Positions 579 to 34,908 of a DNA stretch of 64,000 bases are shown here, in pieces. Positions within the stretch are counted from its first letter, which is position 1; every line of letters starts with the position of its first letter. The position numbers were made by a program, and so were the translations under genes. This DNA is from Chlorobiota bacterium. Its GTDB lineage: Bacteria > Bacteroidota > Chlorobiia > Chlorobiales > Chlorobiaceae. The stretch is taken from the NCBI GenBank assembly GCA_016866305.1, contig VGMX01000001.1, positions 1 to 64,000 on the forward strand, in the 5' to 3' direction. Below the pieces are notes generated by a model that worked only from the letters and a program-made list of their open reading frames with translations, was not told the DNA's origin and did no database searches.

Positions 579-721
579 GGGCACCTCAAAAAAGTTATTC
601 CGCACCCGGATTGCTGCGTTGGTCGGTGCTCGAAATCCTCATGTACTCTCTGTACACACTCGGTTTCTCCGCTCCGTCCGCCTTGCACTCCGGGTGCTCA
701 CGACACTTTTTTGAGGTGCCC
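579..721. repeat. Dispersed palindromic repeat family A, copy 1
   Basis: Ends form an inverted repeat gggcacctcaaaaaagt...acttttttgaggtgccc; core gctcgaaatcctcatgtact...gtacac...ctccgtccgccttgcactccgggtgctcacgac shared with copies at 1337 and 33309. Confidence 0.85.
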
Positions 722-1336: not shown

Positions 1337-1478
1337 GGGCACCTCGAAAAAGTTATTCCTCACCCGGATTGCTGCGTTGGGCGATGCTCGAAATCCTCAT
1401 GTACTCTGTGTACACTCCGGGTTCTCCGCTCCGTCCGCCTTGCACTCCGGGTGCTCACGACACTTTTTCGAGATACCC
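1337..1478. repeat. Dispersed palindromic repeat family A, copy 2
   Basis: gggcacctcgaaaaagt...actttttcgagataccc ends with the same ~110 bp core as copy 1. Confidence 0.85.
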
Positions 1479-28070: not shown

Positions 28071-28345
28071 TTTTTTCCCACTGGGGATACTTCCGTCCGG
28101 AGCAATAAATTACAAATATGTAGAATAACAGAAAAGCAACCGGCAGGATATTGCCCCTCCCTGCCCCTTCCGCCCGGCTGCGAAAACCTCGCCAGGCAAC
28201 AGAAAAATCAAGGGTAACCGGAAAAACATCCGGAAATCCCCATGGCTCCCCATGCAAGAAAAAACACAGCAGGATCGACACCCGATCACTGAAAACAGGA
28301 AATCCTGCGGTGTCCGGTAACGGCAACAATTCCGGGGAATGAACA

Positions 28346-28391
28346 AACGACATAAATGTAGCTTCGCGCGTCTTACTACATTTATGTCGTT
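28346..28391. promoter_or_regulatory. 16-bp perfect inverted repeat upstream of nifH
   Basis: aacgacataaatgtag-(14 nt)-ctacatttatgtcgtt. Confidence 0.9.
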
Positions 28392-28545
28392 ATTTTCTTC
28401 TCCATAACTCCTCACAGCCAAAAAAATTTTGGCGCATCTCCTGCAGAAAAATCTCTTCTTCGAAACCGGAACAGCGCTGATAATAAAAGGTTACGCTTTC
28501 TGTAATCCCTGTACGACAAACATTTCGCCTGCCACCTCCTTGCTT

Positions 28546-28636: not shown

Positions 28637-29473
<837 letters not shown>

Positions 29474-30266: not shown

Positions 30267-31901
30267 ATGGAGCCAATGAATCATTATCCGGATCCGATCA
30301 AAATCAGAGAGGAGCTGGTAGAAAAATATCCGGCGAAAGTCGCTAAGAAGCGCACCAAGTCGATTATCATCAACGACCCGGAAACCATACCGGAAGTACA
30401 GGCCAACGTGCGGACCGTTCCAGGCATCATAACCCAGCGAGGGTGCTCGTACGCAGGATGCAAGGGTGTGGTGCTCGGTCCGACCCGCGATATCGTCAAC
30501 ATCGTTCACGGCCCGATCGGCTGCAGCTTCTACGCCTGGCTGACCCGCCGCAACCAGACAAGACCGGAAAGCCCGGAGCACGAAAACTTCATCACCTACT
30601 GCTTCTCGACCGACATGCAGGAGGAACATGTGGTGTTCGGCGGGGAAAAGAAGCTGAAGCTGGCAATCCAGGAAGCCTACGACCTTTTTCATCCGAAAGC
30701 CATCGCGATCTTCTCGACCTGCCCGGTCGGCCTGATCGGTGACGACGTGCACGCCGTTTCCAAGGAGATGCGGGAAAAACTCGGCGACTGCAACGTCTTC
30801 GGCTTCAGCTGTGAAGGCTACCGTGGCGTGAGCCAGTCGGCCGGTCACCACATCGCCAACAACGGCGTGTTCAAGCACATGGTCGGCCGCAACAACGACC
30901 AGAAGGAGGGCAAGTTCAAGCTGAACCTGCTCGGAGAATACAACATCGGCGGCGACGCATTCGAGATCGAGCGCATCTTCGAAAAATGCGGCATCACGCT
31001 CGTGGCATCGTTCAGCGGCAACTCCACTGTCGGTGCACTTGAAAATGCGCACACTGCGGACCTGAACGTGATCATGTGCCACCGCTCGATCAACTACATG
31101 GGCGAGATGATGGAGACCAAGTACGGCATTCCGTGGATGAAGGTGAACTTCGTCGGCGCCGAATCGACGGCCAAGTCACTCCGCAAGATTGCCGAGTACT
31201 TCGACGATGAAGGGCTCAAAGTCCGTGTCGAGGAGGTGATCGCAGAGGAGATGCCGAAAGTGAAGGCTGTGATCGACGAGATCCGCCCGAGAACTGAAGG
31301 AAAAACCGCCATGCTCTTCGTCGGCGGCTCGCGTGCGCACCATTACCAGGATCTCTTCACCGAGCTTGGCATGAAAACGGTTGCCGCAGGTTACGAATTT
31401 GCGCACCGAGACGACTACGAGGGCCGTCATGTGCTCCCGAACATCAAGATCGACGCCGACAGCAAGAACATCGAGGAACTGAAAGTCGAGCCCGATCCGG
31501 AAAAATACAACCCCCGCAAGAGCGAGGCCGAACTTGAGGCGCTCAAGGAAAAAGGACTCGAGATCAACGGGTACGAGGGCATGATGAAGCAGATGCTGAA
31601 AAAATCGCTCGTTGTCGATGACGTCAGCCACTATGAATCGGAAAAGCTGATCGAAATCTACAAACCGGACATCTTCTGTGCGGGCATCAAGGAAAAGTAT
31701 GTCGTACAGAAAATGGGCGTGCCGCTCAAGCAGCTCCACAGCTACGACTACGGCGGCCCTTACACCGGATTCGTCGGGGCGACGAACTTCTACCGGGACA
31801 TCGACCGCATGGTGAACAACCCTGTCTGGAAAATGATCAAGGCCCCCTGGGAAAAAACCGGAAACGAAGCAGAGCTTGCAGCCAGCTACGTTACACAGTA
31901 A
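30267..31901 (+). CDS. nifD: Nitrogenase MoFe protein alpha chain
   Basis: GCSYAGCKGVVLGPTRDIVNIVHGPIGCSFYAW; FSCEGYRGVSQSAGHHIAN; 544 aa. Confidence 0.96.
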   Translation: MEPMNHYPDPIKIREELVEKYPAKVAKKRTKSIIINDPETIPEVQANVRTVPGIITQRGCSYAGCKGVVLGPTRDIVNIVHGPIGCSFYAWLTRRNQTRPESPEHENFITYCFSTDMQEEHVVFGGEKKLKLAIQEAYDLFHPKAIAIFSTCPVGLIGDDVHAVSKEMREKLGDCNVFGFSCEGYRGVSQSAGHHIANNGVFKHMVGRNNDQKEGKFKLNLLGEYNIGGDAFEIERIFEKCGITLVASFSGNSTVGALENAHTADLNVIMCHRSINYMGEMMETKYGIPWMKVNFVGAESTAKSLRKIAEYFDDEGLKVRVEEVIAEEMPKVKAVIDEIRPRTEGKTAMLFVGGSRAHHYQDLFTELGMKTVAAGYEFAHRDDYEGRHVLPNIKIDADSKNIEELKVEPDPEKYNPRKSEAELEALKEKGLEINGYEGMMKQMLKKSLVVDDVSHYESEKLIEIYKPDIFCAGIKEKYVVQKMGVPLKQLHSYDYGGPYTGFVGATNFYRDIDRMVNNPVWKMIKAPWEKTGNEAELAASYVTQ

Positions 31902-31927: not shown

Positions 31928-33307
31928 ATGTTACTACGACACACCACAAAAGAGGTCAAGGAGCGCGAAGGCCTGACGATCAACCCGGCTAAAACCTGCC
32001 AGCCGATCGGAGCCATGTATGCCGCGCTCGGCGTTCACGGCTGTCTGCCTCACAGCCACGGCTCCCAGGGATGCTGCTCCTATCACCGCAGCACCCTCAC
32101 ACGCCACTACAAGGAACCGGTCATGGCAGCAACCAGCTCGTTCACCGAAGGCGCTTCGGTGTTCGGTGGCCAGGCGAACCTGCTCTCGGCGATCGAAACC
32201 ATCTTTTCGGTCTACGATCCGGATATCATCGCCGTGCACTCGACCTGCCTGTCGGAAACCATCGGTGACGACCTGCAGCAGATCACGAAAAAAGCAAGCG
32301 ACGACGGAAAGATTCCCGAGGGCAAGTACGTGATCTATGCCAGCACCCCGAGCTTTGTCGGATCGCATGTCACCGGTTATGCCAACATGGTTACCGGCAT
32401 CGCCGAACAGTTCGCCGAGTCCAGTGGAGAAAAGAAAAACCAGGTCAACATCATAGCCGGCTGGATGGAGCCGTCCGACATGCGGGAAATCAAGAGGCTG
32501 TCGGCAGAACTCGGCGTAAAGATCGTGCTCTTCCCCGACACCTCCGACGTGCTCGATGCACCGCAGACCGGAAAGCACGAATTCTACCCGAAAGGCGGCA
32601 CAACGGTTGAAGAACTGAAAAGCACCGGCGACAGCAAATGCTCGCTCGCTCTCGGATGCATGAGCGCCGAACCTGCAGCCATCGCGCTCGAAAAAAAATG
32701 CAAGACCCCTTTCGAAACCGTCGACATGCCGATCGGCCTCGGTGCAACCGACCGCTTCATCATGACACTCGCCAAGGCAGCGGGCGTTGCGGTTCCGGAC
32801 TCGATCACCGCTGAAAGAGGGCGGCTCGTCGATGTGATGACCGACATGGAACAGTACTTCCATGGCAAGAAAGTGGCACTCTTCGGCGATCCCGACCAGA
32901 TCATTCCGCTCACCGAATTCCTGCTCGACCTCGGCATGAAACCAATGCACATCGTCAGCGGCACACCCGGCCTCAGGTTCGAAAAGCGCATGCGTGAAAT
33001 TCTCGAACGCGCTCCCTATGCGAATTTCAGGAACGGCATGGGCGCCGACATGTTCCTTCTCCACCAGTGGATCAAGAACGAACCGGTTGACCTGCTTATC
33101 GGCAACACTTACGGCAAGTACATCGCCCGTGACGAGGACATCCCGTTCGTACGGTTCGGTTTCCCGATCCTCGACCGCATCGGCCACAGCTACTTCCCCA
33201 GTGTGGGATACACCGGCGGCCTGAGGCTGCTTGAAAAAATTCTCGGTGTCTTCATGGACCGTCAGGACCGTGATGCTCTTGAGGAGAAGTTCGAACTCGT
33301 GATGTAA
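31928..33307 (+). CDS. nifK: Nitrogenase MoFe protein beta chain
   Basis: NPAKTCQPIGAMYAALGVHGCLPHSHGSQGCCSYHRSTLTRHYKEP. Confidence 0.96.
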   Translation: MLLRHTTKEVKEREGLTINPAKTCQPIGAMYAALGVHGCLPHSHGSQGCCSYHRSTLTRHYKEPVMAATSSFTEGASVFGGQANLLSAIETIFSVYDPDIIAVHSTCLSETIGDDLQQITKKASDDGKIPEGKYVIYASTPSFVGSHVTGYANMVTGIAEQFAESSGEKKNQVNIIAGWMEPSDMREIKRLSAELGVKIVLFPDTSDVLDAPQTGKHEFYPKGGTTVEELKSTGDSKCSLALGCMSAEPAAIALEKKCKTPFETVDMPIGLGATDRFIMTLAKAAGVAVPDSITAERGRLVDVMTDMEQYFHGKKVALFGDPDQIIPLTEFLLDLGMKPMHIVSGTPGLRFEKRMREILERAPYANFRNGMGADMFLLHQWIKNEPVDLLIGNTYGKYIARDEDIPFVRFGFPILDRIGHSYFPSVGYTGGLRLLEKILGVFMDRQDRDALEEKFELVM

Positions 33308-33308
33308 G

Positions 33309-33448
33309 GTCATCTCTTTTTGTCTGTTCCGAAGCCCGATTGCAACGTTGGGCGGTACTCGAAATCCTCATGTACTGCGTGTACACTCCGGTTTCTCCGT
33401 TCCGTCCGCCTTGCACCCAGGCTTCTCACCACGACAGAAAAAGATGAC
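33309..33448. repeat. Dispersed palindromic repeat family A, copy 3, in the nifK-nifE spacer
   Basis: gtcatctctttttgtc...gacagaaaaagatgac ends; core gtactcgaaatcctcatgtactgcgtgtacactccggtttctccgttccgtccgccttgca. Confidence 0.85.
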
Positions 33449-33476
33449 TGAAGAGAAGATTAACGGACCAAAGGAA

Positions 33477-33499
33477 CACTCCCGGCATTGCCGGGAGTG
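33477..33499 (+). other. Strong hairpin immediately upstream of nifE
   Basis: cactcccggcattgccgggagtg, no U-tract, 11 bp before the ATG at 33511. Confidence 0.75.
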
Positions 33500-33510
33500 G
33501 CTCCTGAAAC

Positions 33511-34908
33511 ATGGAATTACTTATTGAAAAAGGGGTTGGCAGCATGAAGGAAGAGATCGGCATTCTTGAGGCAAGGCAAAGCCAGATTTTCGAGAAAAGA
33601 AGCGGAGAGGAACAGCAATTCGACATTGCATGCGACAAGACAAGCCTTTCCGGTTCTGTCAGCCAGCGCGCCTGTGTCTTCTGTGGTTCCCGGGTGGTCC
33701 TCTATCCGGTTGCCGACGCCATTCATATCGTGCACGGCCCGATCGGTTGCGCGGCATACACCTGGGATATCCGCGGAGCCGTCTCTTCAGGTCCTGAACT
33801 GCACCGGCTGAGTTTTTCGACCGACCTGCAGGAAATGGACGTGATCTATGGCGGGGAAAAAAAGCTTTACCGTTCCCTTGTCGAACTGATCGACCAGTAT
33901 CAGCCAAAAGCGGCTTTCATCTACTCGACCTGCATTATCGGACTGATCGGTGACGACATCGAGGCTGTCTGCAAAAAAGTCGCAAAAGAAAAGGGAATCC
34001 CGGTCATGCCGGTGCATTCCGAAGGATTCAAGGGAACAAAGAAGGATGGGTACAAGGCTGCCTGTTCGGCCCTCATGAAACTGATCGGCACCGGCTCGAC
34101 CGAAGGGATCAGTAAATACAGCATCAACATCCTCGGGGAATTCAACCTGGCAGGAGAAGCCTGGATCATCCGGGAATATTACGAAAGAATGGGCATCCAG
34201 GTCGTGGCCACCATGACCGGTGACGGCAGGATCGATGCCATCCGGCGATCCCACGGAGCGTCACTCAACGTGGTGCAGTGCTCGGGTTCCATGACCACGC
34301 TGGCCAGGGAGATGGAAGAGAAATACGGCATCCCCTGCATCCGCGTCTCGTACTTCGGTTTCGAAGACATGTCCAAGTCGCTGTATGACGTTGCGGCACT
34401 GTTCCCCGACAGGCCGGAAATCATGGAGAGGGCACGGGAAATCGTGCGTGACGAGATCAGGAAATACTATCCCGAAATGCAGAAGTTCAGGAGCGCACTG
34501 ACCGGAAAAAAAGCGGCGATCTATGTCGGAGGCGCATTCAAGACCTTCTCGCTGTTCAAGGCCCTCCGTACGGTCGGAATGTCCGTGGTGCTCGCCGGTT
34601 CCCAGACCGGGAACAAGGATGATTACCGTCGCCTCAAGGAGATGTGCGACGAAGGCACGGTGATCGTGGACGACTCGAACCCGGTGGAGCTTTCCAAATT
34701 CGTGCTTGAAAAGGAGGCCGACCTGCTCATCGGCGGCGTCAAGGAACGCCCGATCGCCTTCAAGCTTGGCGTCGGCTTCTGCGACCACAACCACGAACGG
34801 AAGATTCCGCTGGCAGGATTCGTCGGCATGTACAATTTCGCAAAAGAAGTTTATGAATCGGTGATGAGCCCCGTGTGGCAGTTCTCTCCGAGAAAAGGAG
34901 GTCTCTGA
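33511..34908 (+). CDS. nifE: NifE, FeMo-cofactor scaffold
   Basis: RACVFCGSRVVLYPVADAIHIVHGPIGCAAYTWDIRG; start may be the downstream ATG (MKEEIGILE). Confidence 0.94.
   Translation: MELLIEKGVGSMKEEIGILEARQSQIFEKRSGEEQQFDIACDKTSLSGSVSQRACVFCGSRVVLYPVADAIHIVHGPIGCAAYTWDIRGAVSSGPELHRLSFSTDLQEMDVIYGGEKKLYRSLVELIDQYQPKAAFIYSTCIIGLIGDDIEAVCKKVAKEKGIPVMPVHSEGFKGTKKDGYKAACSALMKLIGTGSTEGISKYSINILGEFNLAGEAWIIREYYERMGIQVVATMTGDGRIDAIRRSHGASLNVVQCSGSMTTLAREMEEKYGIPCIRVSYFGFEDMSKSLYDVAALFPDRPEIMERAREIVRDEIRKYYPEMQKFRSALTGKKAAIYVGGAFKTFSLFKALRTVGMSVVLAGSQTGNKDDYRRLKEMCDEGTVIVDDSNPVELSKFVLEKEADLLIGGVKERPIAFKLGVGFCDHNHERKIPLAGFVGMYNFAKEVYESVMSPVWQFSPRKGGL

Follow-up and report, generated by a model that had tools for sequence, protein, structure and literature searches.

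The stretch of DNA analysed here (the window, 64,000 nt of a Chlorobiota contig) holds a nif cluster of green sulfur bacteria comprising nifH (at 28649), nifI1, nifI2, nifD (at 30267), nifK, nifE, nifN and nifB. A first-pass annotation of the sequence had described these genes as tightly packed except between nifK and nifE, where a palindromic repeat and a separate second hairpin were noticed, and this description is borne out: the remaining gaps are 26 nt (nifH-nifI1), 36 nt (nifI2-nifD) and 26 nt (nifD-nifK), and the nifK-nifE spacer contains both the palindrome, here called P, and the second hairpin, here called H2 (Table 1). Some details of that description needed adjustment. P does follow nifK directly, at an offset of 0 nt from the stop codon and not about 2 nt, and the gap of about 200 bp holds for the first in-frame ATG of nifE at 33511. 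Because the alignment with NifE of most relatives begins only at residue 12-14 of the long open reading frame, the start of nifE lies probably at 33544 and the spacer would therefore be about 236 nt long. H2, previously placed just before nifE, is indeed found in the nifE-side part of the spacer, but it ends (inner hairpin 33477-33499) 44 nt upstream of this probable start codon. The fold of the whole spacer has a z value of -4.1 compared with dinucleotide shuffles.

Table 1. Features of the nifK-nifE region, further copies of P and related loci in other genomes (window coordinates unless a locus is named).
Feature	Position	Strand	Basis and remarks
nifK	31928..33307	+	459 aa ORF; PF00148, E 1.9e-138; stop TAA 33305-33307 directly abuts P
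P, MITE-like palindromic repeat	33308..33449	+	142 nt, five stacked helices; covariance model R1 match, E 1.2e-38
P left terminal inverted repeat	33308..33325	+	inverted-repeat arm, family consensus GGGCACCTCTA...; ends as in relatives' IS5-type element
P conserved core	33340..33425	+	common to enterobacterial/Comamonas intergenic repeats; similar to Rfam sX9
P right terminal inverted repeat	33432..33449	+	inverted-repeat arm
H2, intercistronic hairpin	33472..33505	+	10-bp stem 33477-33486/33490-33499, outer AGGA/TCCT stem; fold -25.6 kcal/mol
nifE probable ribosome-binding site	33530..33535	+	AAGGGG; sequence, similar position in relatives
nifE	33544..34908	+	probable true start 33544, not 33511; relatives' alignment; PF00148
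P, further copy	579..721	+	repeat search and covariance model
P, further copy	1337..1478	+	repeat search and covariance model
IS5-type elements (DUF772 and DDE_Tnp_1) with P-like terminal repeats	L346 1218-2520; L354, L359, L361; L348, L356, L358
Cross-phylum core loci	L175, L176, L177, L178, L179, L180		counterpart of window 33340-33425

P is an imperfect palindrome with a minimum free energy of -57.6 kcal/mol, and in the consensus structure of its family 94% of cells are paired, compared with 82% after shuffling, while two-sided changes occur in 24 of the 41 pairs (36 copies in both cases). Covariation in the outer stem was rejected as proof of RNA function, since this stem is the pair of terminal inverted repeats (TIRs), whose arms must match for transposition and would covary without any role of the RNA. 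The spacer palindrome is one of several copies in the window, as had been noted before, and 14 copies are present in its own genome (G000); across Chlorobiaceae, the number ranges from 0 to at least 52 per genome, the family being present in 41 and absent from 20 of 61 genomes, and an exact-core scan of genome contigs gave matches in Chlorobi only. Among 166 copies, a single one lies inside an open reading frame (genes called by a simple codon-usage model); where a copy faces the 3' end of a neighbouring gene, it is within 15 nt of the stop codon in about half of the cases. The orientation relative to genes is balanced, with 36 copies in sense and 45 in antisense. At gathering thresholds, no Rfam family was matched in the window, and BSnc120, which a permissive Rfam search gave at 23.7 bits (threshold 114), was dismissed. 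In the literature searched, no paper was found that gives the P core in the context of bacterial repeats, or that deals with a Chlorobium MITE.

Judged by its sequence hallmarks, P is a MITE-type transposable element, because its copies are flanked by 4-nt target duplications and its ends match those of an IS5-type element that is co-resident in relatives. Such duplications were found at 57 of 156 copies, compared with 4.75 expected by shuffling, with TTAT being the commonest; none is visible at the nif copy in the window, which looks old. AT-rich targets often contain the letters of stop codons, which may explain the landing places of P near stops. TIRs common to P and an autonomous element of the same genome were found in three relatives. 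In G026, a 1303-bp IS5-type element encoding DUF772 (PF05598) and DDE_Tnp_1 (PF01609) has ends as in P, GGGCACCTC(G/T)AAAAA, together with 4-nt duplications TGTA, TATA and TTAA, and in G058 and G001 the insertion sequence and P have the end variant CTATTTATT in common; in relatives, the end variants of the insertion sequence correspond to the co-resident P subfamily. In the sister genome G013, a matching IS5-type element is present as a fragment only. Y1 (IS200-type) transposases, found in 12 of 12 genomes searched, were also considered as mobilisers and were set aside once the IS5-type ends had been matched. P would be mobilised in trans by transposases of the IS5 group.

Like IS5-group MITEs in general, P is short, non-coding, multi-copy and intergenic, with the TIRs of an IS5-type transposon and a 4-nt duplication, and the nearest kind are those which have the TIRs of a co-resident insertion sequence but an unrelated interior. 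Unlike them, P folds along its whole length and has a strongly conserved core, and the partner was not found in its own genome, where no insertion sequence with P ends was detected and the DUF772 copy is without similarity to the G026-type transposase. The sequence of P presumably differs from those of ERIC/IRU and YPAL. With these and other palindromes surveyed in PMC2267715, which are about 130-170 nt long, imperfect and intergenic, P has a likeness in architecture only. ERIC hairpins in yersiniae have been reported to regulate neighbouring gene expression in that survey of intergenic palindromes, which does not mention Chlorobium (PMC2267715).

The P core (about 60 nt) recurs in intergenic repeats of E. 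coli, Klebsiella, Citrobacter and Comamonas, with 77-88% identity over 50-70 nt. The E. coli sites, present in 5395 of 5426 genomes at a median of 2 places, are located in the qseE-qseG and ucpA-cysP spacers, the Citrobacter site at phnC-phnD, and the Comamonas site between two fatty-acid oxidation genes. Where examined, the proteobacterial copies sit inside palindromes with different outer arms, which points to a single, widely distributed hairpin core to which various insertion sequences have lent their ends, and to one repeat lineage across phyla. The core is also similar to the Xanthomonas sRNA sX9 (RF02228), a family that ranks with the most frequently annotated bacterial sRNAs (PMC9029176). 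The likeness covers about 35-40 bases in nearly collinear order (AUGUAC..GUACACUCCGGUU..CUCCGCxCCGUCCG), the 3' half of the model being unmatched; the listed copies of the own genome and those of most relatives score 32-34 bits (32.2 for the window copy) against a gathering score of 44, and one relative's locus exceeds the latter with 46.8 bits.

P and H2 are separate elements differing in age and origin, H2 being the older of the two. The inner hairpin of H2 (CACTCCCGGCA/TGCCGGGAGTG) forms a perfect 10-11 bp stem of -19 kcal/mol, and the possibility that H2 is itself a dispersed repeat was rejected, as its own genome holds no further copies. In two separate clades, where the sequences can be aligned, all pairs of the H2-type stem are kept in 11 of 11 and 7 of 7 distinct sequences, with two-sided compensatory changes whose signal is much weaker in slid-partner controls. 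Between clades, the sequence of H2 has been replaced completely.

The first-pass annotation had proposed that other green sulfur bacteria be checked for an element at the same junction, and they do carry one in most cases. Among nif clusters from 57 other Chlorobiaceae, annotated with the proteins of the window, a strong hairpin (-12 kcal/mol or better) is present in 47 of 56 nifK-nifE spacers, with a median of -25.8 kcal/mol, compared with 7 of 49 nifH-nifI1, 2 of 51 nifI2-nifD and 7 of 57 nifD-nifK spacers (Fisher p < 1e-12). Single descent of the nifK-nifE hairpin cannot be shown, the sequences being too divergent between clades. Nine genomes (L141, L148, L153, L157, L158, L159, L161, L162 and L165) have a spacer of 36-40 nt without a hairpin, and the hairpin is therefore dispensable. 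Moreover, hairpin content may follow spacer length, because a hairpin is likewise present in 14 of the 18 spacers at other nif junctions that are 60 nt or longer; a consistently long spacer is found at nifK-nifE only. Two of the three outgroups have a hairpin at nifK-nifE, and the third has a spacer of 24 nt. As a separate observation, strong nifD-nifK hairpins have been acquired by seven relatives (L118, L120, L117, L122, L132, L134 and L166).

Placed on a tree of NifK and NifE, P occurs at nifK-nifE in G000 and G013; in G058, with its sister G001 lacking P there; in G051 and G044, with their sister G056 (C. ferrooxidans, NZ_AASE01) having hairpins there but lacking P; and, in reversed orientation, in G030, with its sister G004 lacking it. 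Unless losses were frequent, this distribution amounts to a minimum of three to four independent insertions of P at the junction. Further nif junctions with P are nifH-nifI1 (G004, G032), nifI2-nifD (G022) and nifD-nifK (G042). The fetched nif stretches hold 11 strong copies compared with about 2 under a uniform expectation, a test that is weakened by shared descent and intergenic preference. Recurrence at nifK-nifE is not claimed as proof of selection, since about 570 copies of P spread over an assumed 1000-1500 junctions would by chance alone give about 1-3 junctions with at least four insertions. In six genomes of a second genus (L128, L130, L131, L132, L134 and L136), another long palindrome, GGTTCGCG...CGCGAACC, follows nifK; its similarity to P is weak (0-14 of 300 shuffled sequences score at least as high), and it was not counted as a remnant of a P insertion.

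Taken together, we consider it probable, with moderate confidence, that H2 serves as a 3'-stabilising or processing hairpin between nifHDK and nifENB, like those of selective RNA processing and stabilisation (SRPS), and that P is a tolerated insertion of an IS5-type MITE. The first-pass annotation had likewise seen the site as suited to an RNA-processing or 3'-stabilising element at this boundary, and the retention of a hairpin among relatives and the compensatory changes in its stem agree with that proposal. A stabiliser or processor is preferred to a terminator because H2 is conserved at the level of structure, lies at the boundary between nitrogenase and scaffold genes and lacks a U-tract on the coding strand; as in SRPS elements, a stable stem-loop kept by compensatory change follows the favoured gene within the spacer of an operon. 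During expression, transcription would continue through the spacer, the nifHDKENB transcript would be cleaved within it, and H2 would then block 3'-to-5' exonucleases on the upstream mRNA, so that nifHDK mRNA might be stabilised relative to nifENB, with a consequence for stoichiometry, and transcription would not be terminated.

In Clostridium, intercistronic stem-loops, mostly without U-runs, have been reported to raise the transcript abundance of the upstream gene, and stem-loops of similar energy placed between reporters altered the abundance of the upstream transcript and not that of the downstream gene (PMC4423207). Like these SRPS stem-loops (PMC4423207, PMC8219983), H2 is intercistronic, lies behind the gene of a highly needed subunit and has no U-run, and the energies are similar, with -14 to -24 kcal/mol for the former compared with -19 to -26 kcal/mol for H2; the Clostridium elements belong to another phylum and another operon. 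Differential expression based on stability within a long nif transcript has also been described for nif1 of Anabaena, where the transcripts undergo processing and their stability is linked to stem-loops (PMC4284476). The Anabaena stem-loops, however, are situated close to the processed nifH 5' end and not behind nifK, which counts against the model for H2.

A view of the palindrome itself as a dedicated nif element is not upheld. P is not a nif-specific regulator but a transposable repeat that reached nifK-nifE in few lineages, and it is regarded as a passenger because it is mobile, patchily present and found in either orientation. Its insertion directly behind the nifK stop left the protein intact and gave the 3' region a further hairpin, larger than H2; P is probably tolerated there owing to this landing place. 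It may have been co-opted, and it may reinforce H2 or protect the transcript.

The most serious competing explanation, which we hold to be possible but clearly less probable, is that both hairpins are neutral, with untrimmed spacers gathering mobile palindromes and decayed remnants, and nifK-nifE merely tolerating extra DNA. The nature of P as a MITE that also sits at the other three nif junctions in some relatives, the occurrence of hairpins wherever any nif spacer is long, and the loss of the hairpin in nine genomes would all be in line with neutrality, but it would leave the maintenance of a fully paired H2 stem in two separate clades and the retention of the hairpin in most genomes to be accounted for; in part, DNA-level correction of palindrome arms could mimic the compensatory changes. 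A more far-reaching version of the stabilising role, in our view rather unlikely, is that the P core is an old module of Chlorobi and Gamma-/Betaproteobacteria, which was fitted with various insertion-sequence TIRs and has been repeatedly recruited behind nifK, renewing an RNA-stabilising boundary. An attenuator, as the first-pass annotation had also suggested, or a terminator is very unlikely: H2, with P, would let part of the polymerases into nifENB, and strong GC-rich hairpins that immediately follow nifK and precede genes whose products are presumably required in smaller amounts might suit such a function, but neither hairpin has a U-tract after it on the plus strand of the spacer, where the pairing of GC hairpin and U-run seen in intrinsic terminators is accordingly absent, and a terminator-like match occurs on the minus strand only. 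Finally, it is highly improbable that P constitutes a functional module, either an RNA or a protein-binding one, with an sX9-like core selected across phyla, the transposon ends being a mere vehicle, and with a role in trans or as a binding site at nifK-nifE. The cross-phylum identity and the 31-47 bits of the core against sX9 speak for this reading; scores below the gathering threshold for all Chlorobiaceae matches but one, the occurrence of P in both orientations relative to genes and its absence from 20 of 61 relatives speak against it.

If H2 works as the proposed stabilising hairpin, the ratio of nitrogenase to cofactor scaffold in green sulfur bacteria would be set by differential mRNA stability, which would be relevant to the refactoring of nif operons. 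In addition, nifK-nifE offers a natural series, of a kind seldom seen, of repeated landings of hairpin-forming transposons at one operon boundary, and this series could allow the co-option of MITEs as RNA elements to be studied. Elsewhere in the window, an inverted repeat, GGGGAATGAACAAACGACATAAATGTAG / CTACATTTATGTCGTTATTTTCTTCTCC, is present at 28334-28403, about 250 nt upstream of nifH, and is possibly the site of a regulator or the terminator of the upstream gene.
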